Shown here in pieces: positions 3,401 to 20,260 of a DNA stretch of 64,000 nucleotides. Each line of letters begins with the position of its first letter. Positions within the stretch are counted from its first letter, which is position 1. The position numbers and the translations under genes are program-made. Origin of the DNA: Sphaerolaimus hirsutus (lineage: Eukaryota > Nematoda > Chromadorea > Monhysterida > Sphaerolaimidae). The stretch covers positions 10,605,504 to 10,669,503 of the forward strand of contig OZ038460.1 in assembly GCA_964036195.1 (NCBI GenBank), read 5' to 3'. Under the pieces are notes generated by a model. That model was not told the DNA's origin. It ran no database searches and saw nothing but the letters and a program-made list of their open reading frames with translations.

Positions 3401-6400
3401 GTTTTCGATACTCGCTAAACCAGTGAATAAAATTGGAGAAGGGGGTGGTGTAGAAAACCCCCCGGGGGAAGATTTGCCCCAGAAGTGCAAACTAATTTAC
3501 AAAGAAATTGAGCAAAAAACGCTCGATAGACCGGGCGGTCAACTTACTGCAGTCAACTCACGTCAGGCTGAGTTGACAAAAGCGCGTGCGTTTTGGGTTC
3601 CGCACGCAACGCTAAATGCTGCGCCGCTCGAACTGCCGCGGCCATTTCTGTGCCCATTTTTCGGCGCCAAATTGATTGCGCGCCCGGCCCGTTGTGCAGA
3701 TAAGGACGGGAAGATCTGCGAAGGGCAAAAATTGAAAGCGATAATATTAGATAATAAAATGGCGTGCGTGCCCCCCCGCAAAAATGTGCCGGGCCCAAAT
3801 AATGACGCGCGGGCTTGTCAATTAGGTTCAAAAATTTGGGTCAGTGTGAATCTCTCTGAAGAAGTAGAGAAGAGGCTGAAAATTGCAGAAATTACTGCAA
3901 GCGAGCAAACTGTGAAAATGCTTGAAGTTTGCGACAAAAACGGAAGCGGACAAATTAGGGCCGAAAGCAAACGAAAAATTAGTGCGAATAAGGGATCAGG
4001 TATGCGTCACCGGGAGTGTTACGGTAGCGGCCGAGGCGTGTGCGCCTACAAATGGCGTTTTCGCCATGGAAATCTACCTGTGGGCCATAAAATGCGTGCA
4101 CTAGGAATGCGGTGGCGGTTGCCGTGGCCGCGCGGCCGCGCGGTGTGTAAAATGGGGCGTCCGTCTGCGCCGCCTAAGAAACCACAAATGAATGGATCTG
4201 CGTGCTTGCCGGCTAACTTTGCACCGCCGGTCTGTACGCACAAAAGGGGAGGAAAAATCAGACAGATCTTATCTATTTCATATACATTGAATGGCGGGAC
4301 AAAAATACCCGTATTCGCAGTGCTCGCATTTTTATACGCTGCGCTGGGTGCCTGGACTTATCATTCGAGCATTAAGCATTCTGAAAAGCTCAAAATTTTC
4401 GAAAGAATGGAGCCCAACCCGCAAGGAAATCCGGACCTGTTCGAGCCCCGGCCCGAATCGCCCCCAAATCCCATCTTGGATCAAATGATCGATGAGGTCG
4501 ATCGTTTATCGACCATCGACGATTTCGTGCGCTCGTTGAGCCAAGACAATCGCCCGCCGCGCATGGCGCCAGGTAAATTAGTGAGCTCGTGCGCGCGCGC
4601 GAGTGCAGTAAGTGAGACGTACGCGGCGGCGGCGGGAAATGTTGGAAATTGGCGCAAAATTTATTGCAAGCGTATTTTTATTGCTAGAGCGGTTATTGTA
4701 GATTTAAGTGGAAATTCATGGCCCCCCCGAGAGATATGTGATTTTGTAAAATGGCGGCATTTTTCTGATGAACATTCCTATATGATGTTTCGCTTTGCAG
4801 AAGCGGCCGCTGCAGCGGCGGAAAGGGAAGCGGGCGCGGCCGAGATTTTGGCCAATCTATTTAACGACGCGCCCGAACCGGTGAAGGCCGAGCATGAGCG
4901 CGGTGGCGCGGCGGGTGCCCTAGATCAGCTGGAATGGGCCGAATTGTACGGTGAGTGTGGAGAGTTGATGAAGGGTTTTTACTGGCAGTTTTTGTCGAGG
5001 CGTAATAAAAATGGGACGTGCGCAGAGGCGCTGTCGCCGGACATGGTCGACCAGGCGCGCGCGATCACGCCGCCCCAGCTGTTGGCGTCGTCCACGTTGG
5101 ACGCCGGCGTGCTGCTCGCCACGCCCCCCCCGCCGGTGCACATGCACGTGCCCGTGCAGCAGCGCGAAATGACTCCAGGTGGGTGTGAAAATGCACCAGG
5201 AATTTTCTTGGCATCTTACGAAATGGGAGTAGGTGTGATTGATGTAAAGCTAGGGAGTTTTTTTGCAGGCGCGGCGTCGAGCGACGCGCCCATGCCTGGC
5301 CGCACGGCCGAAGGATTTCCTACAGAAGGTGCGCAGACCTCTGCTTACAACCCTAGCATTATGCATAATTTGGTTGCAAGTATTGGATTGCGTGTAGGCG
5401 TCGACGTGGCCGGCACGCAAGCCGCGCTGGGACGCGCTGTCGAGCGATACGAGCAGCGGGCGCGCGGGGCGGCGCCGGTGTCGCAACAAAGTGAGTTCCA
5501 GATGGTCCCTTATGTAAACAAACTTCATAAGGCACATCCGGAACTCTCAGGTGCAACGAGCGAGGGGCGAGATGACTCGCCGGTCGACCAGGTCGACTCG
5601 GTGGTCGACTCGGCTGAGACAGGCGCCCAAGGCGACGACGGGCGGGTGCCGGTCAGGCGCAGCAAGCGGCCGCAGCGCCCTTCGCGACGGCGCTACGCCT
5701 TTGTGGCTATCGAGCCGGGCAGCGAGCCGGCGCCGGAAGACACGCCGCAGCCGGTCAAAAGTAAGTGTTTCTTATGTGCTCGGAGGCGCGCACTTGTTTA
5801 TTCGCATGTGTTCTGCGCTAAGAATGGTCCCAATCTTAGAGTTTCAGCTGGTAAGGATCCGTGTGCCATTTTCTACCTATGTCTGGTTGATTTCCCGCCC
5901 AAGACGGATTTGAAAAGGTACGTGTTAGTCATACGAAAACAAATTCCAGATTATTGCAAAAATGCAATAAGTTTTCGCTCAATTGAACACAATTGCGAGG
6001 GACACGTGAATGGGACACGTTTCTTAGCGCAAAACACAATCTTATCTGATATGATCTCCAGACAAGAGGGCACGCATTTTTGCGATTTTTGCGGACACGT
6101 GAATGCTATTTACGCGCCGCTTGAATGGAGATCTGGGCGCGGCGAGGAGGTAATAATGAAAATTGTAAAAGTAATGAATCATGGCCACTTATTGCAATTG
6201 GCGCACTTAGAGGGGAAATTAGCGTTGGAAAAGCGCCCTAAATGTAAGCATAGGCCTGCATGCCGCGTGAAAATTATCAAGAGGGATAATGTGACTAAGT
6301 TAAGTGGGCAATTAAAATTGGTGTTATCATTACCTAATGACAGCATAAAATCAAAGTGGGAAAAATCTCATAAATTTAACGGTGCATGTTATTTACAAAT

Positions 6401-9400
6401 AAATGACGCAAGCGCACACTGGTTCACTAGAAAGCTAGTTGAGCTAATTGCAACAGTGGAAAAGGTGAAGTTGAAAAATAGTGACTCTGAGCAAACACAA
6501 GATACCCCTTGCCGTGGTTGTGACTGGGATATTTTCAATTCAACCGTGAAAATTCCTATAAAATGTGCGAAATTGAGATGCAAGCTTGGGCATGATTGTG
6601 TTCGCTCGTTACGAGTGACGGGTGCCCACAAATACTTTTACGAAGTGAAAAGACTTCTTAAAAATTGTAAATATTACGAAGGAGGGTGTGATCAAAATTG
6701 TAAACCCAAAAATTGTAAACCCAAAGACTGTAAAACCAAAGAATGTGAACCCAAACATAAAACCACCCACCGTTGCAGGCAAGCGAAAGGCGAGTGCGCC
6801 GGCGCCCGCGAACGGCAACGGCAGCAAGCGCCGCGGCGCCAGCGCGTCCGCACGCGGGTCCGGCGTGGAGCCCGAGCCCATCTCGGAGGGCACCGCGATC
6901 GCCATCGGCGGGATGGCGGCACAGGAGTTGACGGTGCAGGCCAAGGCGCGCCACAAGTTGGCTGCGCAAATAACAGGTGTGAAAGTTGTGATTGTGGACG
7001 TTTTCGAGGACTTGAGGGTGGTTTTGCAGGACTTGAGGGCTTCTTCGTCCTAAATTTGCCCCTTTTATGCACCCAAATAGCACCTAGAGCGGGTCAAATG
7101 CAAAGCATAAATACCACCTCTGCCACCAACATTCCCATTACCCCTGAGCGAAATAACTTGTCATTTTCTGTCCATGTGGACAGACGGAGAGAATTTGCCC
7201 CTTTTAAAATGGTGAATTTACAGCTTGGCGCAGTTAGAGATAACAACTTTACTCAAAAGAATAAGATTTTGTACCAATGGAACATGTTTTCTAGCGCAAA
7301 ACCACGCTCAACACACCCTGTACAGTTTTGGCATAGTTCCAGTGTTATAAACTTACGTTTTGAAAAATGTTGCCTTAGCCCCGAAAATGAAATCTCAGTT
7401 AATGTTTTTCGCCCTGTCAATAAAGTTCCAGTGCTTAAAAGGTGTGGTGTTTACCTAGCTGATACTTGTCCACTAACCCCCTTATCTTGTCCGTCCATTT
7501 ACCGAAATGTTCTACACACAAGTGTCAACAGCAACTGCACAAAACGAAACCATCTAAACTGTCAAACTAACCGAGTTTTATTAGTCAGTAATCATACCAA
7601 CTTAGAATATTTCAGCCAACACCAAATTAGTATTTCCGTTGGTGAAGTTAGCGTTAGGGCGAGTTCGCAGCGGAGTTCGCGAACGATTTTGCCAGGGTGG
7701 AAACGTCTGGAAAACAAATCGAAATGTGAAATTGAAAATAGCAAACCGAAATGTGAAAATGAAAATAGAAAACTTGAATTTCACAAAAGCTTGGAAATGA
7801 GGAAACAAAAGTGTTTAAACATTACGGAAAAGATGTTGGAAATGTGGAATTTTGAAACGTTTTTTGAAACTTTTGAAGCTGGAGTCTTTGGGGGTAAAAT
7901 GTCTAGGCGGCCGGACCTATTGCGCAAACGCTTACGCGAAACTGGAGAACAATGTATATCGCTAAAGTCAAAAACACCTGAAACCTTAGGTAGTCCGACC
8001 GAAACAGAAACTAGGCCTGAAACATTTGGTGCGGCGGTCTGCGACTTAGAAACGTCCGGGACAAGAACGAATGACGAAATTTGGCAAGGCGCCTATTCCC
8101 CGGACTTACACAAGCCTTACGGCGGCCGTTTGAATTCCATTAATACTAAGCTCGGTGGCAAAAATGGTCGGGGGAAACGTGCTCATGTTTTGGGGCGTTT
8201 TTCTGCATTCCTAAGTTGCGGTTTCAGGGCCGCAAACAGCATTTATCGATTCCAGTTGGCAAGTCGCCAAATTTGGGGTAACGGCACATTCGTACCAAAA
8301 ATCCGGAAGAAACAAAATTACGCTCATATGATGATAAAAGTGGCTGAAAATGGCCCGCAAAAGGAAGTGGGGATGCAAATTGAGAAAGATGGTTCTAATT
8401 TTGAAGGTAGAAATAGTTTAAATGAAAACGGAAGTACGTTTGGGAACGTGAGAATTGTGTGCGCCGCTGAGCTCAGTATTGATGGGATCTGTGGGGGCAA
8501 ATTTGAGGGAACCCCGCAGTTGTATCTAAGGCCGGAAAATACCCATTTCTTGTGTAAAATAGTGAAGTGGGCCGTCCGGAAGGCTTGTGAGGGTCAAGTG
8601 AACGGGAAAAAGGGCAAGTATGAGTATTATAAATTTAGGGGAAGTAAAAGGGTGGAAATGCAAACTTTCGGGAGTGTTAGTAGGAAATCCCGGTGTGCAC
8701 GTGAATGGATTCTGACTTTCGTAATGACTCACAAGTCCTCGAAATGGATAATTATTTCGAAATCAATGGTAATGGTTGATAAACTCATAGATGCACCTAC
8801 TACGTCGACCCACCAACCGGTCGAGGAGGACGTGGGTGAGCAGCCAGTTGAAACAAGGGCGGGCTTGTCAGACGACGGGTCTAATGCCGAGCAGCGAGAG
8901 CGTGCCGCTCCCGCCCGATATCCACTCATAGTGCAGCCAAATCGCACAGCGCCGCCGCGCATGGAGCCAGCGGGCGTCGAGAACAACCTGAATTATGAGG
9001 CAGAATATGGCCACCACAAATGTGAGTATTGTGAGAAGGTGAATCGAAGCTTTTTGAGTAAAATGGGTAGTGCTGTGTTTGGTGAAGGGGGTGCGTGTGG
9101 ATTTGAGAAAAATACTGGAACATGTTTTGCAGCTATTCGAGTGCCGCTGCGCCCTGGGCAGACTATCTGTCACATATTTGACTCTCCAGTGCCTATTTTT
9201 CGGCACGTGGTGGGGCTGCCGCTGGAGTACTACCAGGCTACCTACTTCCCATTGGCGTGCTTGCTGGGCGGCTGCAGCACCAATAAAATCAGGCTGGCTT
9301 CTGGCGATGTGGATGTCACTGTGCCACACGTGACTTATGGAAATTTACCATTCAAGGACTTTTCTATCAATTTTATGCATGCAAGGCACCGCTTGTGCCA

Positions 9401-12400
9401 CACTGTGGGCGCCGATTGCTACTGGTGGGGCGTGAATCTGATGGTAGCCTCGGCAATGGGAAATGACCATCTAATCAGAGACTTACTGTTGAGGCCACCG
9501 GTAGTGATGGGCCGCATTCCGATGGTGTGCACTGAACACCAGTACTTCTTTCTGGTCAAACCCAAGGACATCATGGACAGGGTGCCCGGATCGGGCGTGA
9601 TGTGCTTCACATATTTGGATTGTGTGGAGCACCTGACGATGAGCCACTCGTTGAAGATGACACCAGTCACGGTGATGGCTGTGGTAGAGACACTTTTGAG
9701 TGAGTTCGAGCATGTTGAGGGGGTTGTTTGGACTTTTACCAGCTCTATGGGAAATGAAATATTTCACAATTTTGTCAGTTTGTACGAAATGAAAAGTGCT
9801 ATCCATCTCACAGGAGTGATACGCAGCGAGATAGTGCCGAAGGAAGTGACCAGGCTGGTGTCCCGGGAGAGGGTGGAAAGGTGTGCCTGCAACATGGCGT
9901 TGGCGCTGCGCTGGCGCGCTAGCCGCTCGCTTTCGCTAGCGGTTCACAACAAGCACCCAATCAACATCAGCAAGATGACTTTTGGCGTGACGGTCGAGCA
10001 ACTGCGTGTGCTGGCCACCGAGAACAAGGTTGTCAGGGTTGTCAGCACGCCCGAGGGGGATCAATTTATGCTCAAATCGAGGCAGCAGACGTACGTGGAC
10101 CCACTCATGCCAGATGGGCAGAATAAACAGAAGCCCTGTCAGGAAAATTTGGTAGGTGTGGTTTTGGTTTTGATGATTTTGCTGTTGAGTGGATTTAGAG
10201 GGAGGGCGATCCGGTTACTGAGTGTGGCCTTGTTATTTGAGAAGGTCACGGCAGACCCAATGTTGCTGCAAATTTGCTCTAAACCTACAGGGGCTTGGTA
10301 TTTAGATTTACCCGAGATACCCACGTGTAATTTGTACAGTTCAACGTTATTTGGTGAGTCTGAACTGTCACCAGTTCATGACGTGTCAGTGTCAGTATAT
10401 GCACAGAGGCGTCGCCCTGTGACAGCGAATGCCACCTTTTGTCAAGCCAGACGGCACGAGGTGACAACTTGTACAAATGCTTTATTTGCACATTATATTT
10501 ATGAATATCATGATAGTTATGTACCAATGCCGATTGAGAAGTGCGCAGAAATGTTTCACGCGGTGCGTGACGGTCACGCGCGTGAGTCGGGCTTGAAACA
10601 GATTGAACCGATGGTCTGGTCAACCATGAAAAGCATTGATCTGCAATTCCCTACGTGGAATGACTGTTTTAAGCAGCATGTTGATAATTTCATTTTGACA
10701 CAGGGAACTGTGGCCACATTTGATAATCAGCAACTGATTACGGACATGGATGCTGCGCCTACGTGTAGCCCAGCTGCTGGGCGCTGCACCAGCAGCAGGG
10801 GGGTGTTATTCTGGGAACCGACTACTTTAGCACCGGCTTCCTGCCCCTTTGAGCATGTAGGAAACTTTCCTGGGAAAAGACAGAATGAAACGGTTATTTT
10901 GATTCATGAACAAAGTGCTTTCACTATAAAAGGTGGCCCGGTGCACATACAATGCCTGGAGCCAGCGGTATATTTGACAGATCAGGGTCCACTGCTGTCC
11001 ATTTTGCAAATAGACAATTCATCAACTGAAAGCATGTGCCAAATCATGTTTAAGAAGAAGTGTGCATCGACAGTAAAAATGACATTCGCGGAATTTTGGA
11101 GTGGAAATCTAACTCCAAACGCAGCTACACAGCACCAGTTTATGTACCAGGTGTTGACACAGCAAGCCCATCAGAATTTTGAGACCCTAAGACATCAGAT
11201 TTGTGTGTTGGCACGCAGCAATGCACTAATGGTGCGGGCGCTGGCTCATATCTCGCCTGTGGCCGCAGCAAGATTATTGCTTGCTGATGAAAGTATAAAT
11301 GCTGAATACGCTGGTGACGTGCTTTCAGTCACCGCGTGTCATAAGGTTCAACCTGATAGACTCTATATGTCCCATAAAGTGAATGGAATCTGTTATGATA
11401 TGATGCCGGTAAGAGTACATGGGAAGCTTTTATTCAAAATACCAGGATCTCAGGACCTGGTGGAGCATGCAAGCCAGTTGCCCTGCTCTCAATTGCAGTC
11501 ACCAGTGTTTAAATCCAAAAATGGAACCTACTTAGCCTTGACCGATGGGAATATGGTGAAAGTAAAAATGCACCATACCCCAGCTTTTGTACATCCCAAG
11601 TTTCTGTCAGATGGAATCAAATTCAATCGAACCTTGATTCGGCCCGGAATGGTCATGGAAAATGCCATGATGTATGCCAACATGCGTAGTTTACACATGC
11701 GACAGATTGAGGCACGGGAAAAATTGGATAGGCTAATTCATTACACTAGCTTGTTTTCTATTGATAGCGCCCATACAGCAAGTATGTTGCATGGGCGGGG
11801 GCTGGAGCACATGGTAACTCATGCTGGCGAGCTGCTGTTAAATGCATCTGGCCGCGTGATTGACCATGAGTTTGATGTGATTCACATGATTACTACTAGT
11901 GCTGTTCCTAAAGCCATCAGGGGACCGTTTCAATTTGTATTGAACATTCTGTGGGTGATTTTCATTACATTATTGATAATGGGGCTTATCTATCTGTGTG
12001 TGCGTTATGAAGGTTTTCGTAGTGCGGTAATTACTGCATGTGAATGGCCCGTAAGGATGGTAAGTATGGGGATAGTTTGGGTGCGACGCCAGTATGCAAT
12101 GCATGTGACAAATTCTGGTGTGGGTAGTGATCAACAGAAGCCAGATGCTTTTGGTGACAGACCGGAAGTGGATAGGCCAAATACGCTTGACCTGCCTATT
12201 CGATATGTGAGTGGAAGTGGCTATTCTGGAAATAGGGTTCGCATACCTAGGGTGCGTCTGGGGCCGCAATTGCTGCGTACCTTAAAACAAACTAGAGAGG
12301 AAAATGATTTCGATGAACAGATTCAGTCTGAGGTGGTGGCGTCGATGCGCGTGCGTGCCCCGCGACAAGTTCCTTTTCTAGTATTATTGGCGCTTGTGAT

Positions 12401-15400
12401 GATTATCACACCTGCTAATTGTGTGCCTACTTGGAGAGGCGTATTGCATGAGACATTTTCTTGTGTCGGTGTGGTTGATTGGTGTGAGTGTGTTATGGCT
12501 GTGTGTGTGGTATTTAGTGTGTGCATGTGGAACATGTTGAATAAACCCATGATGGTGAGGCCTGTGGGTTTGACTGGCTGTGAGCCAATGAGTGAGTACT
12601 CAAGTACAATGTTACCAAGGTGTGTGTTGATGTCTCAGGTCGAGAAATGGCCGCTCAATAAGTTTGGGGTCGGGGTGTTTGAAACGGAACCTGACTTTTC
12701 TCTGCGGGCCAGGGTGCTGAGCTGTGTGCCATCCCTGTCTGGATTTCTACAGTTTTCTGACAAAGCAAGATTTGTTTTGGAAAGGAATGTGGCTGTGTGG
12801 ATAGGCTTTGAGGGGAACACGTGGGAAAGGAAACTAGGGCAAATTCAAGATTTGCTGAAAGGTAAGAAAAGGAGGTGTGTGCATGGCAGTGGCGCAAGAG
12901 CGCCTAGGTTTAAGAATAAGGCGATTCTTGAGCGAAAGGGCCGCATAAATGAGTTGCACGGTCGCATGCACATGATTCTTGCAACGACCACTGTGCATCA
13001 GCTGAATTCTCTGCCTACGACTGGCCATTTGGCCGCTGCGGGCACAGGAGTGGTTTTGAGTGCCCATGGAATGATTAGGGACATAGAAGTGCACTGTATA
13101 ATAGATACAGGGGCGTCTATGTCATGCCTGAATAAAAGATTGCTTGACAAGTTGAAAATTCCCTACAAAAGCACACAAATTACCATTACGGTAGCAGATG
13201 GTGCTGATATGGTGCCAATTGGCACATGTGATGTGCAACTTGCTATAGATGGCACATTGTTTAATGTGCATGCTCTAGTGTTGGAAGGAATTACCAGTGA
13301 TGTGTATATCGGTTTCAAAACTTTGAAACAGTGGGGAGACTTTCAAGTCACCTTCTATCGAGGAAATGACAATAAAAACTTGGACATGGGAGAGATAAAA
13401 TTTATTACGGGAAAGAAAATACGTTTTAATGTGCCTAAGGGCCGGGGAGTGAATCATGTTATGGTCATGCACACTAAGGAGCGTGTGAAATTAAAGCCGC
13501 TTAGTGTCACTTCTGTGTCCATTTACGCACCTGATGTGACTCAGGAATTTCTGACAATGGTGTTGAAGGACAGAAAACTGGAACGGAATTATGTGTGTGC
13601 TCCGATAGATAAAATGATGAGAGTTCATCGTATAAAAATCTATCCCACACTGATTGACTTGAAGCGTCATTTTGATGAGGAACGTAAGAGCTTTGTTTTG
13701 TCTGGCTCGGTTCCAGTGTTCAATCCAAATAGGAGTGACATCACGGTGCCCAGTGATAGGCCCGTGGTGAAGATTACTCAGCTAGGGGGAATCATGCACA
13801 GGGCGCTAGGAATGGTGCCGGAAAAGCAAATTTTGATTTCGGCGCCAGCTAAGCCCAGTAGTTTAGGGGATCAGGAAACGCCAGTGTATATTACTGGTCA
13901 CACGACTAAAAGGGGTACACAAGTCCCTGTGCTGCTCACGCCGCAATATGGAAGTGAATTTAAGAAACTAGTGATGACTGGTGATGAATGCCAGCAACGT
14001 TTGGGCGAGTGGTTGGATTGTTTGCAGTCAATACACCCAGAAGCCAAGCTGTCTTCGATGATATTGAATGAAGTGAGTATGGCTCAAGTGTTCCCAGAGT
14101 CTATAGCAGCGATGTCAGATGACGCCGGAAAAGCAAGATTGACAGAGTTGAAAAGGGCAGCAGAGGTGGCTAGAAGAGACTCACCTAATGCAGTGGCTAC
14201 GGTAACGGTGCAAGAAAATTATGAAGATGATAATAGGTTAAACCTACCGAACCTGGCTAAACCTATGGTGCCGCAGCTTAGTTTGGAAGAGAGACATGAA
14301 ATAATTAAGCGAGACGCAAATTTTAAAGATACTGTTTTGAATGAACAACAAAAACAAGAGTTCATGGAAATGCTATTACGTTATCATGATGTTTTCGTGT
14401 TAGAATTGGCAAACAGGAGTTCCTGTAGTGCCCTGGTGGCCGACATTCGGCTGAAAGATGAAAACCATCCCGGTTTTCAATCACGCCCGTATCCCATTAG
14501 TTTTTTTGAAGAAAAAATTCTCGATCATTGGCTAGTAAGGCAGATATCTCTGGGATTAGCAGAGTTTGGAGTAAGCCGTTTTTCGAGCCCTGTGTTTCTA
14601 GTTCGAAAACCTACCGCAGAGCCGGAAAAGATACCGTCAATAAAAAACTGGCGTACAGTGTTTGATTTGAGGAAAATCAATTCGCTTTGTCGTTTAGAGC
14701 AAGGAAATGTAACACCCCTCAAACAGTTATTAGAAAAACTTTTATTGGGCGTGGTGTGGTCCACTTTTGATGGATTGTCCGCCTATGACATGATAAAATT
14801 GTCTGAAAATAGTAAAGATTTGTTCGCAATTTCAACTGCGCGTGGTGTTTTAAAATTTAATTCTTTACCCCAGGGGTCCTCATCGAGCACATCAATATTT
14901 TCTCTCGCCATGACCGTGATCTTTTGGAACAGTCGAAAAACTCTAACGTACGTAGATGACGTGTGCACTGTGTCTGACAAAGTGGAGGACCATGTGCATG
15001 ACGTAGAGGACGCGTTGAAGCGTTTTGCTCACTACAGATTTCGCATTTCGCTCAAAAAAACAGTTTTTGCTGCTAGACGAGTGAAAATGCTGGGACAGTA
15101 CATAAGTAGAGAGGGTAGGGAAATGGACAAGGAAAAAGTGGAGGCAATTTGTAAATTGCCCCCACCAAAGGACAAGACTGGTGTGCGCAGTTTCCTAGGG
15201 ATGGCAAACTGGCACCGGAGTTGGATTAAGGATTTTGCACTTCATACGAGACACTTAAATAAGTTGTTAACTGGAAAGGATAATCAACCTTTTGTGTGGA
15301 ATGAGAATGCACAGGAGGAATGGCAATGGTTGAAGGACCAGCTGGTGAAGGCGCCAATTTTGGCAGCACCAGACTATGATAAAGGTTTTGAATTGAGAAC

Positions 15401-17972
15401 TGATGGGTCTAAAAGAGGGATTTCTGGCATTTTGTCGCAGAAGTCTGACAAAAATAGGCACAATGTAATTGGGTACTATTCTAGGGTGTTGTCCAAGCAG
15501 GAACAGCGCATGGCCAGTTATGATTTTGAAATGCTTGCCATTGTGTCTTCCTTAATTCACTGGCGCAGCATCATTTACTGTTATAAAGTTGAAGTGCATA
15601 CTGACTGTGCGGCTGCATGTTACCTGTTGAGAGACAAGCACGCACAGAACCCTAGGGTAGCTAGGTGGTCATTGGCAATTAGTTCCTTCCCGGGGGTTAC
15701 AATAAAATATACCCCTGGTAAAACCAACCCAGCAGACGTATTGTCTAGGGAATTTTCAGCTGAAGATGTGTCCCGCCAACCAGAAATGGTGCCCGACCCG
15801 TCTGAGGCGATTTTGAATGATGACCGCATGGAAATCTGCGGGGAAGATTGTGGTGATTCATGTGAATTGCAGCAAACAGTTAAGGATCATGTGCAGAAGC
15901 ATCTCTTGCAAGTGATGCAAACGAGAAGTAGGGCCAAAGTTGTAAATGCAGGTGTGACTGCAGTTCCTGCAACAAACAATCAAAGTGATGCACAAAATAG
16001 TGCGACTCCAGCCGCTGCGATAAGAGTAGCGACCCCAAATGTTATGGTGACAAATGACCAGGGAGTTAGTCATTCTCTGGTTATCCCCAATGATCCAAAT
16101 ATGGATCAGACGCCAGATCAAATCGCTAGAAGCCAAATTCCAAGTGCGTCTGATTATGACAAGGAGAACTTTTCTGATTTTTTGGAGGAAGATGGAATAG
16201 TACAAAAGTTCCGTGATGGACAGGTTTCAGACGAGTTCTGTGCCGCCATGAAGGATTTTTTGGTGCATGGGAATTTGCCAGTAAACTCTACCTTAGCAAG
16301 GAGGGTGGTTCTGGCGGCACAGCAATATGTTTTGGAAGATGATCTTCTGTATTACTTTGACAAAAGGAAACCTGGTTTGGAGCCAGCGTTACTGCTGTAT
16401 GTGCCTAGAGACATGCGTCGTGCAGTGATGGCGCTGCATCATGCATCTGGGTGGGGAGCACACCAGGGTGCATCGAGAACTTACCAGCGATTATTGCATT
16501 GTTTTTATTGGCACAATGCCTATAATGATGTGGTTGAATATATTAGGAAATGTGCAAAGTGTTTTGCACACAAGGGACAGACTGGTCAAGTGGTTTCACC
16601 ACATGGCCAATTACCACAAGCTGACAAACCTTTTGATGTTTTATATTTCGACATTTCAAATGTCATGCATTACAGTGCAACATGTCAGTACAAGGCAGTG
16701 GTGACAGCCATCTGCCCCTTTTCTAGTTATCCCTTTGCTGCGCCTCTGTCAGACATGCGCACGATTACCATTGCGCAGGCTTTAATGACCCATGTTTTTT
16801 CATTTACTGGGTTCCCCAGGGTTTGCATCAGTGATCATGGCGCAAATTTGATGGCCTTGCGGGAGTGTTTTAGGTTTTTGCGTGTAGGTTACAGAAATGT
16901 GCTACTTGCAAACCCACAGTCGAATAAGGTTGAAAATTGGCACCGTTTCAAGACATCATTAGGCATAATGATTACACAGTATGCTAGAAGTCATGAGAAT
17001 TGGGATGAGACCCTGCCCATGCTCATGCTGGCTCTTAGAACCAGCCATTCAGCGAGCATTGGCATGAGTGCTTTTGAAGTAGTTTTTGGACACAGGCCCA
17101 ATCTGTTTTTCTTGCCTGATGCGTTGAGTAGGCCAAGTTTGGCATTGAGAACCAGTGAGTCAGCTATTGGTTTTGTTAGGGAGTCAATTTATCAGGCATG
17201 GAAAACAGCAATTAAGAATAAACTGGAGTATGAGCAGACCACAGCTAAACAGGTAGAGCTGGAAAAAAATAAGTTGCAAGTAGGTGATGCCGTCTATGTG
17301 AGACAAGTATTTGTGCCAAAGGTTGGCCAGACTAGTAAATTTTTGCCAAAACTTTTGGGACCATTGGTGGTTCGCAAGGTTTTGAATAGTGCTGCGTATG
17401 TGGGTGCAATAGGCGAACCGGATCGCCCTGCACAACTTATTCCTTTTAGACGTATTTGTAAAGTTGTTGGAGATGCTGAAGCTAAGAAAATGAAGAAGAG
17501 TGAAGTTTTAAATTGTATGTTAAGTAAAGGAGAAATTTTGAAATTTTCAGCCCTTCACCGCGCTGGCAGTGACTCAGGCTGTGCCGATCCAGGTCACTCA
17601 AGACGGAGCCCTGGTGGGAATGGTGGAATGCCATCGCTGGCCGGCCCTGTCGGACAGAATGATAGAAATGCATCATTGTGTTCACAAGTACGAGGTGCCC
17701 TACTTGAAGAGGGTGTGGTTGCGTGTGAGAGGTGGAGTGATGCACTTCGCAGTGGGAGTGCGCCCGTTCCTGACGGAGTGGCACGATCGCAGCACCCACT
17801 GGCCGGTGGCCAGCAGCGAGGTTTTCGAACCATCCAACTTGCTGTTCAGAATGCCCACGGTGAATTTGGACCCGAGACACACGCAGTTTGGACAAGTGAT
17901 GAATGTGGGTGCACCGGCTCCCGGCACCAGTGCTGGCCGGCAGGAGCTGCTGATGCATCCATGGCCATCTGA
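909..17972 (+). CDS. Gag - middle region - Env-like - Pol single open frame (5,687 aa)
   Basis: One uninterrupted frame starts at ATG 909. In order: proline/glycine-rich N-terminus; Gag capsid-like helical region about aa 360-555; coiled coil about 635-680; CCHC knuckle at 776-789; a 2,300-aa section of mixed character; an envelope-like part (about 3089-3720); aspartic protease with DTGAS (Asp at 4066); RT with YVDD (first Asp 4683); RNase H (TDGS Asp 4832); integrase HHCC and D-D-E (5248, 5309, 5342). The last 140 or so residues after the integrase look like out-of-frame translation of a different real frame (17551-18048). By chance about 267 stops would be expected in 5,687 codons at even base composition, so openness is selected. 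Whether one polyprotein is made or several spliced products is unknown; no stop or frameshift separates gag from pol. Confidence 0.9.
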   Translation: MMVFPLPPLVPEFDAEGKLVLPELPEKVVEVRTMEELDEQIDNITRQQQILQGKDYSFEDRALRAQCRSYLARLDGLLAQLKAVKRTFATEEVRRRANALRNDPGEVPGGSGNGDNAENDPNNPTGDPPTTDPPIQLLTVADPNGAPPTGGIPAQHVGGAQPPMGRGLPRTPLQPANPPAGTAPRTPPPATSRASSTGAGASTISAPGMAGGGVFPRSSVVMAAPRRRAFSGSSTVQNLNALTAQNGSNQVFGLVPSVQKGTPSGSNGYGSQGGAPGVPSPQVGGVGGTFSSGRASNVASNQPGGPIDLVNDVRGGEWYQKYMDDREQTVEYLRNATNQRLQNLELEIAHAKRAAINDSVNPYELGGGKDSVLTGPYITALSQKCCEYGGERSEGAINPSVWIKQLEVALYSLCIPKKKWPLCLSLRLKGEPLRWLAGVDDSTRSNYQELKRQFLLTYENTEVQMRARDELSRTKQMKTQSVKEFYHNLRDMHASAFAHLDEATKERDFRILFANSISPQLQIFYRTLSPAEQNQPFLTLLERLSTYESQVTDTRAPPSFEVRPSAPGDQNRRGGYVPRGRFVMNRRRFERRPFNDRENASANRAEDPLSQLERPTEVLQSARTGLRTEENDSSSKNTEIVKKLDEISGEIKKGTERVDKLESQFRDESSEMRRAILEIGRKSAENFAQGRGMTFRRGGASNPNFQGISMPRNFQNSNPNGPNQNLNASFTSAPPSSPNYTQQNQQNMRGTGWSTQYRSQGPGSNMGQGAGSPRACYQCGQVGHLARSCTATRGQNRPPERVNHVYHSLSTLAAGVAMEDKNEGNGAVEHLFSILAKPVNKIGEGGGVENPPGEDLPQKCKLIYKEIEQKTLDRPGGQLTAVNSRQAELTKARAFWVPHATLNAAPLELPRPFLCPFFGAKLIARPARCADKDGKICEGQKLKAIILDNKMACVPPRKNVPGPNNDARACQLGSKIWVSVNLSEEVEKRLKIAEITASEQTVKMLEVCDKNGSGQIRAESKRKISANKGSGMRHRECYGSGRGVCAYKWRFRHGNLPVGHKMRALGMRWRLPWPRGRAVCKMGRPSAPPKKPQMNGSACLPANFAPPVCTHKRGGKIRQILSISYTLNGGTKIPVFAVLAFLYAALGAWTYHSSIKHSEKLKIFERMEPNPQGNPDLFEPRPESPPNPILDQMIDEVDRLSTIDDFVRSLSQDNRPPRMAPGKLVSSCARASAVSETYAAAAGNVGNWRKIYCKRIFIARAVIVDLSGNSWPPREICDFVKWRHFSDEHSYMMFRFAEAAAAAAEREAGAAEILANLFNDAPEPVKAEHERGGAAGALDQLEWAELYGECGELMKGFYWQFLSRRNKNGTCAEALSPDMVDQARAITPPQLLASSTLDAGVLLATPPPPVHMHVPVQQREMTPGGCENAPGIFLASYEMGVGVIDVKLGSFFAGAASSDAPMPGRTAEGFPTEGAQTSAYNPSIMHNLVASIGLRVGVDVAGTQAALGRAVERYEQRARGAAPVSQQSEFQMVPYVNKLHKAHPELSGATSEGRDDSPVDQVDSVVDSAETGAQGDDGRVPVRRSKRPQRPSRRRYAFVAIEPGSEPAPEDTPQPVKSKCFLCARRRALVYSHVFCAKNGPNLRVSAGKDPCAIFYLCLVDFPPKTDLKRYVLVIRKQIPDYCKNAISFRSIEHNCEGHVNGTRFLAQNTILSDMISRQEGTHFCDFCGHVNAIYAPLEWRSGRGEEVIMKIVKVMNHGHLLQLAHLEGKLALEKRPKCKHRPACRVKIIKRDNVTKLSGQLKLVLSLPNDSIKSKWEKSHKFNGACYLQINDASAHWFTRKLVELIATVEKVKLKNSDSEQTQDTPCRGCDWDIFNSTVKIPIKCAKLRCKLGHDCVRSLRVTGAHKYFYEVKRLLKNCKYYEGGCDQNCKPKNCKPKDCKTKECEPKHKTTHRCRQAKGECAGARERQRQQAPRRQRVRTRVRRGARAHLGGHRDRHRRDGGTGVDGAGQGAPQVGCANNRCESCDCGRFRGLEGGFAGLEGFFVLNLPLLCTQIAPRAGQMQSINTTSATNIPITPERNNLSFSVHVDRRREFAPFKMVNLQLGAVRDNNFTQKNKILYQWNMFSSAKPRSTHPVQFWHSSSVINLRFEKCCLSPENEISVNVFRPVNKVPVLKRCGVYLADTCPLTPLSCPSIYRNVLHTSVNSNCTKRNHLNCQTNRVLLVSNHTNLEYFSQHQISISVGEVSVRASSQRSSRTILPGWKRLENKSKCEIENSKPKCENENRKLEFHKSLEMRKQKCLNITEKMLEMWNFETFFETFEAGVFGGKMSRRPDLLRKRLRETGEQCISLKSKTPETLGSPTETETRPETFGAAVCDLETSGTRTNDEIWQGAYSPDLHKPYGGRLNSINTKLGGKNGRGKRAHVLGRFSAFLSCGFRAANSIYRFQLASRQIWGNGTFVPKIRKKQNYAHMMIKVAENGPQKEVGMQIEKDGSNFEGRNSLNENGSTFGNVRIVCAAELSIDGICGGKFEGTPQLYLRPENTHFLCKIVKWAVRKACEGQVNGKKGKYEYYKFRGSKRVEMQTFGSVSRKSRCAREWILTFVMTHKSSKWIIISKSMVMVDKLIDAPTTSTHQPVEEDVGEQPVETRAGLSDDGSNAEQRERAAPARYPLIVQPNRTAPPRMEPAGVENNLNYEAEYGHHKCEYCEKVNRSFLSKMGSAVFGEGGACGFEKNTGTCFAAIRVPLRPGQTICHIFDSPVPIFRHVVGLPLEYYQATYFPLACLLGGCSTNKIRLASGDVDVTVPHVTYGNLPFKDFSINFMHARHRLCHTVGADCYWWGVNLMVASAMGNDHLIRDLLLRPPVVMGRIPMVCTEHQYFFLVKPKDIMDRVPGSGVMCFTYLDCVEHLTMSHSLKMTPVTVMAVVETLLSEFEHVEGVVWTFTSSMGNEIFHNFVSLYEMKSAIHLTGVIRSEIVPKEVTRLVSRERVERCACNMALALRWRASRSLSLAVHNKHPINISKMTFGVTVEQLRVLATENKVVRVVSTPEGDQFMLKSRQQTYVDPLMPDGQNKQKPCQENLVGVVLVLMILLLSGFRGRAIRLLSVALLFEKVTADPMLLQICSKPTGAWYLDLPEIPTCNLYSSTLFGESELSPVHDVSVSVYAQRRRPVTANATFCQARRHEVTTCTNALFAHYIYEYHDSYVPMPIEKCAEMFHAVRDGHARESGLKQIEPMVWSTMKSIDLQFPTWNDCFKQHVDNFILTQGTVATFDNQQLITDMDAAPTCSPAAGRCTSSRGVLFWEPTTLAPASCPFEHVGNFPGKRQNETVILIHEQSAFTIKGGPVHIQCLEPAVYLTDQGPLLSILQIDNSSTESMCQIMFKKKCASTVKMTFAEFWSGNLTPNAATQHQFMYQVLTQQAHQNFETLRHQICVLARSNALMVRALAHISPVAAARLLLADESINAEYAGDVLSVTACHKVQPDRLYMSHKVNGICYDMMPVRVHGKLLFKIPGSQDLVEHASQLPCSQLQSPVFKSKNGTYLALTDGNMVKVKMHHTPAFVHPKFLSDGIKFNRTLIRPGMVMENAMMYANMRSLHMRQIEAREKLDRLIHYTSLFSIDSAHTASMLHGRGLEHMVTHAGELLLNASGRVIDHEFDVIHMITTSAVPKAIRGPFQFVLNILWVIFITLLIMGLIYLCVRYEGFRSAVITACEWPVRMVSMGIVWVRRQYAMHVTNSGVGSDQQKPDAFGDRPEVDRPNTLDLPIRYVSGSGYSGNRVRIPRVRLGPQLLRTLKQTREENDFDEQIQSEVVASMRVRAPRQVPFLVLLALVMIITPANCVPTWRGVLHETFSCVGVVDWCECVMAVCVVFSVCMWNMLNKPMMVRPVGLTGCEPMSEYSSTMLPRCVLMSQVEKWPLNKFGVGVFETEPDFSLRARVLSCVPSLSGFLQFSDKARFVLERNVAVWIGFEGNTWERKLGQIQDLLKGKKRRCVHGSGARAPRFKNKAILERKGRINELHGRMHMILATTTVHQLNSLPTTGHLAAAGTGVVLSAHGMIRDIEVHCIIDTGASMSCLNKRLLDKLKIPYKSTQITITVADGADMVPIGTCDVQLAIDGTLFNVHALVLEGITSDVYIGFKTLKQWGDFQVTFYRGNDNKNLDMGEIKFITGKKIRFNVPKGRGVNHVMVMHTKERVKLKPLSVTSVSIYAPDVTQEFLTMVLKDRKLERNYVCAPIDKMMRVHRIKIYPTLIDLKRHFDEERKSFVLSGSVPVFNPNRSDITVPSDRPVVKITQLGGIMHRALGMVPEKQILISAPAKPSSLGDQETPVYITGHTTKRGTQVPVLLTPQYGSEFKKLVMTGDECQQRLGEWLDCLQSIHPEAKLSSMILNEVSMAQVFPESIAAMSDDAGKARLTELKRAAEVARRDSPNAVATVTVQENYEDDNRLNLPNLAKPMVPQLSLEERHEIIKRDANFKDTVLNEQQKQEFMEMLLRYHDVFVLELANRSSCSALVADIRLKDENHPGFQSRPYPISFFEEKILDHWLVRQISLGLAEFGVSRFSSPVFLVRKPTAEPEKIPSIKNWRTVFDLRKINSLCRLEQGNVTPLKQLLEKLLLGVVWSTFDGLSAYDMIKLSENSKDLFAISTARGVLKFNSLPQGSSSSTSIFSLAMTVIFWNSRKTLTYVDDVCTVSDKVEDHVHDVEDALKRFAHYRFRISLKKTVFAARRVKMLGQYISREGREMDKEKVEAICKLPPPKDKTGVRSFLGMANWHRSWIKDFALHTRHLNKLLTGKDNQPFVWNENAQEEWQWLKDQLVKAPILAAPDYDKGFELRTDGSKRGISGILSQKSDKNRHNVIGYYSRVLSKQEQRMASYDFEMLAIVSSLIHWRSIIYCYKVEVHTDCAAACYLLRDKHAQNPRVARWSLAISSFPGVTIKYTPGKTNPADVLSREFSAEDVSRQPEMVPDPSEAILNDDRMEICGEDCGDSCELQQTVKDHVQKHLLQVMQTRSRAKVVNAGVTAVPATNNQSDAQNSATPAAAIRVATPNVMVTNDQGVSHSLVIPNDPNMDQTPDQIARSQIPSASDYDKENFSDFLEEDGIVQKFRDGQVSDEFCAAMKDFLVHGNLPVNSTLARRVVLAAQQYVLEDDLLYYFDKRKPGLEPALLLYVPRDMRRAVMALHHASGWGAHQGASRTYQRLLHCFYWHNAYNDVVEYIRKCAKCFAHKGQTGQVVSPHGQLPQADKPFDVLYFDISNVMHYSATCQYKAVVTAICPFSSYPFAAPLSDMRTITIAQALMTHVFSFTGFPRVCISDHGANLMALRECFRFLRVGYRNVLLANPQSNKVENWHRFKTSLGIMITQYARSHENWDETLPMLMLALRTSHSASIGMSAFEVVFGHRPNLFFLPDALSRPSLALRTSESAIGFVRESIYQAWKTAIKNKLEYEQTTAKQVELEKNKLQVGDAVYVRQVFVPKVGQTSKFLPKLLGPLVVRKVLNSAAYVGAIGEPDRPAQLIPFRRICKVVGDAEAKKMKKSEVLNCMLSKGEILKFSALHRAGSDSGCADPGHSRRSPGGNGGMPSLAGPVGQNDRNASLCSQVRGALLEEGVVACERWSDALRSGSAPVPDGVARSQHPLAGGQQRGFRTIQLAVQNAHGEFGPETHAVWTSDECGCTGSRHQCWPAGAADASMAI

Positions 17973-18487
17973 GGGTTTGGCCTGTGATGAAATAGATAGG
18001 GAGGTGCCGCCAATCAGGGCGCAACCGCTGGGCACAGGCACTCCAGTGGTTGGTATTTGTTATTTTTCGTTTTCAATGTCAATACTTGAATTTTTAATTT
18101 TTTGACACAGTAGCCTAAAAGGTTAAAATGTTGCAGGTGATGAAGCCGTCGCGTCCCATGGATGCTGAGCGCAGGTATGCTAGGGCCTTTTCTTGTCACC
18201 GTTGTGGCCGCCGAGGCCACAAACAACATGAGTGTCGATATGATAGGTATTGTCCTAAGTGTCGAGTGAACACACATAAGGCGGGAAATTGCATTTTCGG
18301 CGCTCCTGATGACAGAGAGTCACAGTATGCGCGCAGTAGAAACTCCATTCAGCAACTTGCACAAGAAATCAAGGCTGATGTCATGACTGCTGTGATATCT
18401 CAATTAGCACCATCTAATCAGTCATCTTCTCAGAATTTTGGAGGCAATGTGCAAGCGCGAGGCCGAAAACGTAGAGGCAATGTATAA
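4407..18487 (+). CDS. Overprinted 12-exon gene inside the retroelement (predicted, 1,004 aa)
   Basis: Predicted exons: 4407-4572, 4801-4950, 5026-5178, 5269-5328, 5398-5490, 5551-5760, 6779-6976, 8791-9021, 9133-9699, 9814-10151, 17551-18048, 18137-18487. All junctions are GT-AG and phases agree at each, giving 3,015 nt. ATG 4407 is the first ATG after a good acceptor at 4320/4321. Exons 2-7 are strikingly GC-rich against AT-rich introns. Seven introns (228, 75, 90, 69, 60, 111, 114 nt) are multiples of three and stop-free in the Gag-Pol frame; exon 7 and exons 11-12 are read in other frames. The product has an acidic Ala/Pro-rich N-terminus, basic stretches such as KRPQRPSRRR and a possible NLS, a Cys-containing globular region (exons 9-11), and two C-terminal zinc knuckles. 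No known family recognised. The last donor (GTG|GTTGGT at 18048) is weak. A captured host gene or a viral-type accessory gene are both possible. Confidence 0.65.
6690..6778 (+). repeat. Short Cys-Lys repeat before exon 7 acceptor
   Basis: About 15-bp units of the form AATTGTAAACCCAAA are repeated four to five times with drift, encoding NCKPK-like repeats in the polyprotein frame. The run ends close to the acceptor CCGTTGCAG at 6778. The unit could be coding, or could be a splicing or RNA-folding element. Confidence 0.5.
10173..12540 (+). other. Envelope-like membrane glycoprotein segment
   Basis: ATG 10173 starts a hydrophobic leader (MILLLSG and following) that ends near a TADP sequence, as a signal peptide would. 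A cysteine-rich ectodomain of roughly 580 residues follows with several N-x-S/T sites, then a strong membrane anchor (about 11934-12000, FVLNILWVIFITLL) and a basic cytoplasmic part. Two more hydrophobic stretches lie at about 12366-12430 and 12488-12540. The layout is that of a type I viral envelope glycoprotein. The family could not be assigned. Unusually, it lies upstream of the protease. It is bounded by the donor at 10151/10152 of the overprinted gene, so spliced transcripts would skip it. Confidence 0.65.
13035..17510 (+). other. Pol: protease, reverse transcriptase, RNase H, integrase
   Basis: Protease: CIIDTGASMSCLNK with the catalytic Asp at codon 13104. RT: FDLRKINSL, the STFDGLSAYD catalytic motif, LPQGSSSS and YVDD (14949-14960). 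RNase H: LRTDGSKRG (Asp codon 15402) and the VEVHTDCAA motif. Integrase: HHCC zinc domain from about 16437, then Asp (16650), Asp (16833, SDHGAN) and Glu (16932, VENW), with a C-terminal domain to about 17460. Order PR-RT-RH-IN identifies the Ty3 lineage. All catalytic residues are present. The second Asp to Glu spacing is 32 residues, not the usual 35. Confidence 0.95.
17551..18048 (+). other. Penultimate exon overlapping the end of pol in another frame
   Basis: The acceptor GAAATTTTCAG ends at 17550. From CCC at 17551 a frame shifted relative to pol stays open to 18105 and reads as ordinary protein (LKRVWLRVRGGVMHFAVGV, PFLTEWHDRS). In the same interval the pol frame is Gly/Ser/Arg-rich and looks non-biological. 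Phase 0 fits the donor TTG|GTAGGT at 10151. The AT-rich sequence 18049-18136 looks like an intron ending in TTGCAG. Confidence 0.65.
18128..18487 (+). CDS. Double zinc-knuckle ORF / terminal exon
   Basis: A 119-codon frame with two CCHC knuckles: CHRCGRRGHKQHEC and CPKCRVNTHKAGNC, both perfect C-x2-C-x4-H-x4-C, followed by an amphipathic helix and a basic tail (RGRKRRGNV). It is either the last exon (18137-18487) of the spliced gene or a stand-alone small protein from ATG 18128. It is separate from the Gag knuckle at 3234, so the element has two nucleocapsid-like modules. Single-stranded nucleic acid binding is the family-level expectation. Confidence 0.7.
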   Translation: MLQVMKPSRPMDAERRYARAFSCHRCGRRGHKQHECRYDRYCPKCRVNTHKAGNCIFGAPDDRESQYARSRNSIQQLAQEIKADVMTAVISQLAPSNQSSSQNFGGNVQARGRKRRGNV

Positions 18488-20260
18488 GTTCATGATCGAC
18501 CAGGGGAATTGGAAGATTCAGGACGTGCGCGCCTTAACATCGAGGTGCCAAATCATCCCTGCCACGGAGCCACATACCACCGACTTCATGTGTGTTTTGT
18601 GTTTGTGTTCTAGTGCTGTGATGGTGTTGTAGAGTCAGACACAGTGTCTTTTGGTTACTGCTGGAGCCGAGAAGTTCTGACCTTTCTTTTCCTTTCGGTC
18701 AGACCCTTCTCAGTTCAGCGAAAAATTATGGTCCTCCTTGTTTTATTTTATTTTTCCTTTCACTTATTTACTCCCACTTTAATCAAAAACAAAAACCAAA
18801 CAAAAATAAAACACTTTACCAAATTTCTTTCTAAATTACTAAATTTTTCATTTCAATTAAAATAATTTAACAATTATTTTATTAATCATTTTCAAACAAA
18901 TTTTAAAAAAAAAAAAAAAAAAACATACATTAACACGCTAAGTATTTTGGAAAGTGTGGTAAATTTATTTAAATATTTACATTTCACGTTTCATTATCAT
19001 ATGCTGTATTTTGCATTTTGTTTTGAGTTTTTGAGTGTCTAAACATTTTTAAAAATTTTGAAAATATCCTACGCTTATGTATCGTCTACCGCACATCATC
19101 ATTTTACCACATAAGTGTAGGGCACTAATCCACATTATACCAATTGCTCCAACCAAAGGATGTCAATTCTACTGCACCATCACAACGACTGACAATTAAT
19201 TATTCTTGCCTAAATGAACAATATATCCTCTAACGTCACAGTGAGGATACAGCTGTCTGCACAACTTTGAAGCCAGAAGTCCCACAACCTGCTGTGTTCA
19301 GCACTTCATTGTCAAGAATTCCGGTCAGAGGGCGGTCTAAAGTGTATATGCAGAATGACCAAACTCCCAATTCGCTGGCAATGGGCAACAGCGTACTGGT
19401 CGCCGCTAGGCAGACATATTTGCCGATACCTATGACGGAATCTGTGCCACCACCATCTGCTATTTCTTCAAGGCACAGAGTGCTCCAGCAAAGGGCAAAG
19501 GCTAAGAGCAGTGTTTGGCAGGAAAAGTGACATTTGCAGACAGGAAGGAAGGATTTGGCAGATGTTGGAGTAGATTGAGTGGGGCAGTGCATAAATTCAT
19601 AAATTGTATATTTCGCATTATCTTTTGCATTCACCGTTTTGCGCCTGTGGAAAGGCTTTTGTTGTATTAGGGGGTGATCCCACCCACACCATATAAAAAT
19701 TTTACTTTGTGCTAGTCTTAAGTTATAAAAATTTTTACCCTTTTCCATTTTTCCCATTTTTTATTTTTTTTAAAAATTGAACAGTCTTGCCTTGATTAGG
19801 AGTGCAAATTTTGTTTGAAATTTGCCATTGCGCTTGACCTTAAGTTGGCTTTGGTGTACAGTTTTGTTTGATAGCTGTTGTGGTCTCAAAACCAAGAAAA
19901 ATCTCCAAAAAAATATTGCATCTCAATACTTTTGCTCATGTGTTGAAACTGTTGTGTTCATGATACTCATGTTGTGACATGTACATTTGCTCATGACTAT
20001 AATCATTCCAAGTTGGTGGTATGTTTCTTTCAGTGGCTTATTTAGGCTATGTGGTAATCAAATTTTAGGTAGGTGTGAAACTTTGTAGAGTAGGCCCTGG
20101 CACCAATATTCTGCTAAGTTTTGTTCTGTGTGGAACCAGAAGTTCTATTAGGGGGTGATCTATTGTATTGTTGGCATTTTGCCATAAGATCTATTGTATT
20201 GTTGGCCTTTTGCCATGATCTAAAATAGCTATTGTACTTTGGCTTGTTGCCGTGGTTATT
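18488..20260 (+). other. 3' non-coding region of the retroelement
   Basis: 1.8 kb between the last recognised exon and the 3' LTR. It holds a run of 19 A (18905-18923), a plus-strand ORF 19267-19530 and an overlapping minus ORF 19236-19757 that I could not assign, and two copies of TTAGGGGGTGATC (19668-19680 and 20149-20161). No strong polypurine tract is visible before 20261; AGGAAG is the only purine run there. Confidence 0.5.

Follow-up and report, generated by a model that had tools for sequence, protein, structure and literature searches.

Predicted expression of a spliced twelve-exon gene from a giant-polyprotein LTR retroelement of the nematode Sphaerolaimus hirsutus

Can a retroelement that passes through an RNA intermediate carry a spliced gene of many exons, and what becomes of a polyprotein frame that runs through the introns? 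The question is raised by a 64,000-nucleotide stretch of the Sphaerolaimus hirsutus genome (GCA_964036195.1, contig OZ038460.1, positions 10,605,504 to 10,669,503 of the forward strand), referred to here as the window. A long terminal repeat (LTR) element with a total length of about 20.9 kb occupies window positions 1-20829. It contains a single open reading frame (ORF) of 5,687 codons (909..17972, frame 0), which reads Gag, a region with the exons and introns of a second gene, an envelope-like part (Env), protease (PR), reverse transcriptase with RNase H (RT/RH) and integrase (IN). All element features described below are on the plus strand. The original prediction, made from the letters of the window, held that this second gene, here called X, is spliced, has about 1,000 codons and sits in a retroelement whose frame remains open over its full length. 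This view was supported by further family copies, by a sister family and by a genomic copy of a related family that was spliced in nature. The best explanation as a whole, which we consider very probable, is that a Ty3/gypsy-type LTR retroelement with a giant polyprotein and a class III env expresses X as a second protein by splicing. The unspliced RNA would serve as the genome and as the messenger for the giant polyprotein. Splicing of the element RNA would yield X, and on the unspliced RNA translation would run through the introns as far as Env and Pol. Sequence comparison showed a conserved gene structure, the exact loss of two introns in one genomic copy of a related family, and a frame 0 that is open through introns without third-position bias.

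The exon chain of gene X

A single exon chain fitted the four junctions given in the original prediction together with its total length. The twelve exons, in consistent phase at all junctions and summing to 3,015 nt, were re-derived exactly, and no internal in-frame stop was found. The re-derived coordinates also placed exons 1-10 between Gag and env and exons 11-12 beyond integrase, as proposed. Exons 1 to 6 (4407..4572, starting with ATG 4407; 4801..4950; 5026..5178; 5269..5328; 5398..5490; and 5551..5760) and exons 8 to 10 (8791..9021, 9133..9699 and 9814..10151) are in frame 0. Exon 7 (6779..6976) is in frame 1 and overprinted on frame 0. Exon 11 (17551..18048), also in frame 1, is overprinted on the polyprotein tail to 17972. 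Exon 12 (18137..18487) is in frame 2 and ends with a TAA stop codon at 18485; two CCHC zinc knuckles, as predicted for the end of X, were recognized in it by eye, together with a basic tail. The whole gene had been described as overprinted on the polyprotein. This holds strictly for exons 7 and 11, whereas exons 1-6 and 8-10 share the polyprotein frame and exon 12 lies past its stop.

Introns 1-9 are all phase 1, and seven of the nine have lengths divisible by three. Intron 6 (5761..6778, 1,018 nt) and intron 7 (6977..8790, 1,814 nt), which flank exon 7 and are both open in frame 0, offset each other's frame. Intron 10 (10152..17550, 7.4 kb) holds env, PR, RT, RNase H and IN. The GC content was 0.53-0.75 in exons 1-11, 0.48 in exon 12 and 0.27-0.47 in the introns.

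When exon chains were searched mechanically between ATG 4407 and donor 10151, two of five settings returned the same ten exons, except for one acceptor (9190 in place of 9133). The remaining three settings (zero or double composition weight) kept many sites and added, dropped or moved exons. After block-wise shuffling of codons, none of 400 shuffles reached the combined score of the chain at any of three block sizes. With 300 shuffles at each of two block sizes, the real score of the X region was again never reached (0 and 0). The same search elsewhere gave nothing comparable: the real scores were reached by 280 and 283 shuffles in gag, 16 and 44 in env-PR (the nearest), 114 and 129 in PR-RT, and 172 and 158 in RT-IN. 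When codon usage was trained on the frame-0 exons, exon 11 scored +19 bits in frame 1 versus -78 bits in frame 0. The result was weaker for exon 7, with -7 bits in frame 1 versus -27 bits in frame 0.

Conserved exons, open introns and a processed copy

The original prediction pointed to other genomic copies as a check. Their alignment bore it out, with invariant splice sites, third-position-biased exons and mostly divergent introns. As evidence, the comparison of copies and families outweighs the exon-chain search by far. Sixteen further copies of the same family were aligned for 17350-18650 and 12 of these for 4200-10350, giving 17 and 13 rows with the window. The X alignment omitted four of the 16 copies, two whose fetched pieces showed a deletion or displacement of the region and two partly covered. 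Splice dinucleotides were intact in 13/13 rows for the donors of exons 1-8 and the acceptors of exons 2-9, in 12/12 for the exon-9 donor and exon-10 acceptor, in 11/11 for the exon-10 donor where the piece reaches it, and in 17/17 for the 3' part. Gaps in exons 9-10 of two rows and at 10326-10340 of one row were ends of fetched pieces (one row also had a large exon-9 insertion), not splice-site losses. ATG 4407 was present in 13/13 rows and the stop codon in 17/17. Exon 12 as a stand-alone small ORF from ATG 18128 was rejected, since only 4/17 rows had that ATG.

Variable sites at the first, second and third codon positions numbered 5/1/25 in exon 1, 3/4/18 in exon 2, 10/4/10 in exon 3, 14/11/25 in exon 6, 8/8/17 in exon 7 (frame 1), 9/4/32 in exon 8, 13/1/61 in exon 9, 7/3/38 in exon 10 and 6/4/29 in exon 12 (frame 2). 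In the exon-11 overlap to 17972, they were 10/2/53 in frame 1 and 53/10/2 in frame 0. The third-position excess in exons 1, 2 and 6-12 had P values from 1e-17 to 0.02. Eight of the ten introns compared had mean pairwise differences of 0.11-0.21 between copies. Over 4200-10350, the copies L009-L024 were mosaics, with an identity to the window that jumped by block (96%, 86%, 95% and 89% in L019), and otherwise different copies had indels in common, as if by template switching or recombination. Internally deleted copies were rejected as spliced forms on the one of two deletions that was resolved, which ended at a 2-nt overlap and off the splice sites.

Frame 0 was free of stops from 4230 to 10340 (6.1 kb) in nine of the 13 rows, and one further row had one stop. 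The stop count in the introns used ten rows, with three broken rows excluded. Frame 0 of introns 1-9 contained two polymorphic stop-bearing codons among 1,180, versus about 41 expected; frames 1 and 2 contained 86 among 1,184 and 126 among 1,181. One of the two frame-0 stops adjoined alignment gaps and was out of frame in those rows, an alignment artefact. Net length changes of all segments in the aligned part of the ORF were multiples of three in the ten rows, piece ends aside. In the exon-11 overlap, where two rows were excluded, frame 0 had no stop versus 3.3 expected, a weak result. The family alignment showed no third-position excess of variable sites in introns 1, 6, 7, 8 and 9 (136/132/140 in intron 6 and 275/262/266 in intron 7). 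Purged stops together with flat codon positions suggested that the constraint on most intron sequence is to stay readable rather than to specify any one peptide. The stop avoidance would be explained most simply by ribosomes passing through the introns; selection would then remove stops and frameshifts and largely ignore the intron peptide.

Tandem repeats in intron 6 (6694-6755) and intron 7 (7715-7773) have periods of 15 and 27, both divisible by three, as would follow from an intron length kept in frame. Intron 11 (18049-18136), which lies outside the giant ORF, provided a useful contrast to introns 1-9: it is AT-rich (GC 0.27), and the indel length was divisible by three in only one of six cases.

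The sister family was represented by five copies, about 75% identical over the part of the LTR compared, and two pieces were read per copy. Amino acid identities to the window were 58-63% for exon 1, 57-59% for exon 2, 40-42% for exon 6, 46% for exon 8, 67% for exon 9, about 60% for exon 10, 75-77% for exon 11, 77-78% for exon 12 and 93-94% for integrase. For exon 11, the 75-77% was obtained in frame 1 versus 48-51% in frame 0. Exons 3 and 7 had no sister match from sequence alone and were placed by position and reading. The sister frame was stop-free in three of the five copies. One sister copy was mapped exon by exon. It had the same structure, with nine introns between exons 1 and 10, all phase 1, and it kept the frame change at exon 7. 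Intron 2 was absent from it: exons 2 and 3 were fused, and the window join between ELY and EALSPDM aligned with an uninterrupted GMYEPMSPDQ. Exon 9 of the sister was split by an extra GT-AG intron with exact borders. As read from the sequences, the absence of intron 2 and the extra exon-9 intron act as natural experiments.

Comparison with the sister also bore on whether frame 0 of the introns encodes functional protein, so that the introns would be alternative coding exons and not neutral spacers. We regard this as improbable: variable sites were flat over codon positions in the five introns named above, and introns 1 and 3 were near shuffled identity to the sister, even though weak codon structure was present in introns 6 and 7, with z about 3, and in intron 8, with z 2.1, a stretch of intron 6 had 36-40% amino acid identity to the sister, and introns 8 (0.61 versus 0.47) and 9 (0.56 versus 0.43) exceeded shuffled identity.

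A search of the 348-Mb assembly with exon 9 gave at least 60 loci, down to 38% identity. Among the 60 listed, 27 lay in open frames 5,000 or more codons long. Exon 9 was split in 42 of them, with both halves in one open frame in 42/42 and about 75-207 nt apart. Exon 11 lay downstream at 59 of the listed loci, 7.7-9.5 kb away in 58 of these 59. At the exceptional locus, on contig C4, it lay only 346 nt past exon 9. The C4 copy was compared with a member of its family on contig C12, and DNA identity was 90% in exon 10, 89% in exons 11-12 and 82% in the exon-9 part. On C12, intron 9 is 159 nt long, and intron 10 is 7,507 nt long and starts with env. Both were missing from the C4 copy exactly at GT..AG, and exon 10 abutted exons 9 and 11 directly. 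No gag, env, RT or IN was found in the 6 kb fetched around it. This loss indicated that in this related (third) family exon 9 was joined to exon 10, and exon 10 to exon 11 across env-pol. The simplest reading is that the C4 copy arose by reverse transcription and insertion of an RNA that had been spliced in part. A chance gene model was rejected on the shuffles, the copy comparison and this processed copy.

Five further loci from other families had one stop-free frame over 4.3-4.6 kb in 5/5 pieces. At the most distant loci (G000 C7:14894576, C1:17077624, C1:28185914, C3:11267939 and C2:25414741), exon 11 lay inside the giant polyprotein frame. The overprinting of exon 11 is therefore not universal, and the frame relation changed in evolution.

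Several observations weigh against a spliced gene X. The splice motifs scored without base composition were not significant (48, 39 and 43 of 400 shuffles reached the score), and scores were poor for the exon-3 and exon-8 acceptors and for the exon-11 donor. Exons 3, 4 and 5 singly had no significant third-position excess. The leader acceptor proposed at 4321, with ATG 4407 as the first start codon, stood within the family, where the AG and the ATG were in 13/13 rows; by eye, the single sister copy printed had no counterpart AG. Three of 13 rows had frames broken by indels or insertions. Six of 13 distinct gap lengths in the intron 7 alignment were not divisible by three, and these cancel or sit in broken rows. 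The C4 copy keeps the exon-9 intron and intron 11, so its source RNA was only partly spliced. X had no recognized homologue or Pfam domain in the exons scanned, and Pfam did not score its zinc knuckles. Its exon 9-10 part had no match at E ≤ 0.01 among 6,564 candidate proteins (about 550-1,750 amino acids only).

Exons that are mere GC-rich segments of the polyprotein, with no splicing and with junctions that are chance GT/AG pairs, would also fit some of the data: 10-12% of shuffles reached the splice motifs alone, frame 0 holds nine of the exons, and the length of most introns is divisible by three. This reading is hardly credible, because exons 7, 11 and 12 show conservation outside frame 0, the introns lack third-position bias, the splice sites are invariant, intron presence varies between families at exact borders, and the C4 copy lacks two introns exactly.

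Hairpin introns and the role of X

Introns 4 (5329..5397) and 5 (5491..5550) differed from the rest. Their mean differences between copies were 0.032 and 0.049, versus 0.11-0.21 in the other eight introns, and in comparison with the sister both were conserved better than exon 5. Each folded end to end, with z -1.8 for intron 4 (sister -2.9) and -6.4 for intron 5 (sister -5.5); four other short introns had z from -1.2 to +0.6. Between families, five of 21 pairs were changed on both sides in intron 4 (four sequences only) and one pair in intron 5. The hairpins bring donor and acceptor sides together and are present only in RNA that is unspliced at that place.

Intron-like hairpins of 57-69 nt (z -4.4 to -6.2) were also found in three of five further families, two carrying two each and the third one. 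They were called intron-like by GT..AG and fold, not by exon homology. The scan took only lengths that are multiples of three, which allows no inference on length; with these lengths, no hairpin introns were found in the other two families. A covariance model built from the window and the sister detected the intron-5 type in two of these three families, neither of which had gone into the model, at 26.0 and 25.3 bits (E about 1e-4). The hairpin introns are candidates for a recognition site of X, for a means of hiding splice sites, or for both.

X would be a protein of about 1,000 amino acids with basic patches in exons 6, 7 and 12, a KRK motif at the exon 6/7 join and the two C-terminal CCHC knuckles. 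The single-sequence structure prediction for exon 11 was unusable (predicted local distance difference test score, pLDDT, 31). As no homologue or domain was recognized, its function rests on motif and analogy. The original prediction argued that such an element must protect its unspliced RNA, as complex retroviruses do, and the reasoning seems sound. In the available passages on the Ty3/gypsy element Cer1 of C. elegans, the protein CERV is required for export of unspliced (genomic) Cer1 RNA (PMC10309623). By analogy, X may work in the nucleus as an RNA-binding regulator of the CERV or Rev type, which would allow unspliced RNA out of the nucleus or protect it. We put this forward tentatively as the likeliest role, as it falls a little short of an even chance.

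X could also be a second structural protein, Gag-like or nucleocapsid-like, translated from spliced RNA; its task would be to coat or package RNA, not to export it. C-terminal zinc knuckles are typical of nucleocapsid, the element's own Gag has a similar knuckle with a 19-residue match to exon 12, and exons 9-12 are among the best conserved. However, the element already has a Gag, and no capsid domain was found in the exons scanned. Exon 12, the only exon compared, showed no similarity to the Gag piece past the knuckle; with only this 19-residue match, X as a duplicated Gag was rejected. On balance, a structural role seems rather unlikely. Retroelement accessory genes often counter host defence, and X might act on PIWI-interacting RNA (piRNA), nonsense-mediated decay (NMD) or innate silencing and not on export of its own RNA. 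Its N-terminal half is less conserved between families than its C-terminal half, and is rich in basic patches; the domain and protein searches found no specific domain or target, and we think this role unlikely.

Taken with the nuclear regulator reading, the open introns and the hairpins allow a wider proposal, which is possible and which we hold with more doubt than that reading itself. A clade of giant retroelements would keep a many-intron gene by means of translatable introns, mostly free in sequence and barred from frame-0 stops and frameshifts. The paired hairpin introns, whose structure is kept where neighbouring exons barely align, would be an intron-borne switch that is read by the zinc-knuckle protein X, marks unspliced RNA and sets the balance of spliced and genomic RNA.

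The element, its surroundings and described relatives

The in-window part of the 5' LTR (1..569) was identical to 20261-20829 at 569/569 positions. The exact match extends another 100 nt upstream, placing the LTR start 100 nt upstream of the window. The 3' LTR (20161..20829) has about 669 nt, and the flanks are compatible, by eye, with a 4-nt GAAG target duplication. As the LTR copies are identical over these 569 nt and the 100 nt upstream, the insertion is probably recent.

The frame-0 ORF was searched with Pfam in six overlapping pieces. Gag (2181..3278) gave Retrotrans_gag at 2181-2429 and a zinc knuckle at 3228-3278, and no recognized domain was found from 3609 to 9308. Hydropathy indicated a membrane-spanning-like segment in frame 0 (4305..4361) immediately 5' of X, an odd placement between Gag and X; by eye, the sister DNA seems to hold a similar hydrophobic stretch. 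The Env-like part (10146..12002) comprised a signal-like segment, which overlaps the exon-10 donor of X at 10146, a class III fusion glycoprotein match (11043-11546; PF24664, E 3.5e-13; PF00606, E 2.7e-8 yet below its curated cut-off) and a membrane anchor-like segment (11946-12002). An aspartic protease (13068..13331) was followed by RT, RNase H, an H2C2 zinc domain and a weak rve integrase core (14640..16853); the core was under the Pfam cut-off and the H2C2 domain over it. LTRs thus surround gag, PR, RT, RNase H and IN in that order, which is the Ty3/gypsy (Metaviridae) layout, and the element is classed here by this gene order. The top RT/pol matches were 26-34% identical among the matches listed, and the pol piece had at least 84 distant matches among 7,985 scored proteins. 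A large-polyprotein search gave 39 matches, and the four scanned with Pfam had no envelope match at E ≤ 0.01. Public data also hold the giant Ty3-type polyproteins P0111 (4,872 amino acids), P0092 and P0094, one of which combines a 3'-5' exonuclease with an MLLE and an IQ domain; no envelope match was found in these. Rfam gave no match in the window at gathering scores.

In the neighbouring DNA, an ORF on the minus strand (31759-32418) matched, with E 1e-13, the ubiquitin-like domain of protein kinase D, which is an animal gene; the element lies near a conserved gene. The region 24594-28600 holds G-rich repeats with units like GGGGGGTATTTCGAG. A 278-nt inverted repeat at 27347-27989, 94% complementary and with an 87-nt spacer, is perhaps a small mobile element.

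The original prediction knew of no described element with this layout. That was too strong, as there are precedents in Cer1/CERV and in Burro, which are described here from passages of the cited papers. CERV is made from a 5-exon spliced RNA; exons 1-3 and 5 are in the polyprotein frame and exon 4 is not, and its C-terminal half lies after pol (PMC10309623, PMC3315495). Cer1 has a gag-pol frame without internal stop and makes a second protein by splicing, mostly from polyprotein-frame exons plus one off-frame exon, with a KRK-type basic motif (PMC10309623, PMC3315495). Likewise, a second protein from spliced RNA is predicted here by sequence comparison and the processed copy of a related family, with exons partly in the polyprotein frame, an internal exon off-frame and a C-terminus after pol. 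The differences are that X has 12 exons versus 5, that the first ten lie between gag and env and do not share gag, that X is about twice as long and has terminal CCHC knuckles, that env and pol lie within one intron, and that there are hairpin introns. CERV, with 517 amino acids, is outside the length range of the X protein search; X is likened to it by layout, not by sequence.

Burro of planarians has a single ORF of about 5,000 amino acids with env in frame between gag and PR and matches to mononegavirus fusion glycoproteins (PMC6431247). The element here also has a single gag-to-integrase ORF and an env in frame ahead of protease (11043-11546 versus 13068). Unlike this element of about 20.9 kb, Burro is more than 30 kb long and has accessory domains of BIR, BCL2, ankyrin or MATH type (PMC6431247), none of which had a Pfam match in the six ORF pieces. 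No spliced gene with multiple exons is mentioned in the passages of that paper. Anakin and further elements whose envelope derives from chuviruses have likewise captured a glycoprotein gene, from chuviruses, whereas the passages on them mention no in-frame giant polyprotein or spliced accessory gene (PMC12440569, PMC7642597, PMC10084718). Complex retroviruses with Rev and the Rev response element (RRE), such as HIV-1, also have a spliced regulatory gene and unspliced RNA that needs export, according to passages of PMC10309623. Euglenid intermediate introns likewise have stable RNA secondary structure, in different organisms and with no retroelement link mentioned in the passages of PMC4770533. 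The layout is the sum of Burro and Cer1/CERV and so not a new kind. The likeness of X to HIV-1 extends to a candidate cis element within introns; Rev is small and without zinc knuckles, and to our knowledge the X system and HIV-1 Rev have no sequence relation.

Among open-licence PubMed Central full-text papers, no described element with the same layout was found, Cer1 and Burro being the nearest, and a paper elsewhere may exist. As far as these searches show, the apparently new features are the intron number, env-pol as an intron, the stop-purged and little-constrained introns, and the hairpin introns.

Natural variation indicates that a retroelement can carry eleven sense-orientation GT-AG introns through an RNA life cycle. 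The price would be that those inside the giant frame must stay open, which separates the requirement that a frame be open from the requirement that its peptide be conserved. The clade would provide a clean test bed for the escape of unspliced RNA from splicing outside retroviruses, with the hairpin introns as the specific RNA to test. The CERV principle, which we found described only for nematode Cer1 elements, would be widened to a family-rich clade with an envelope gene.

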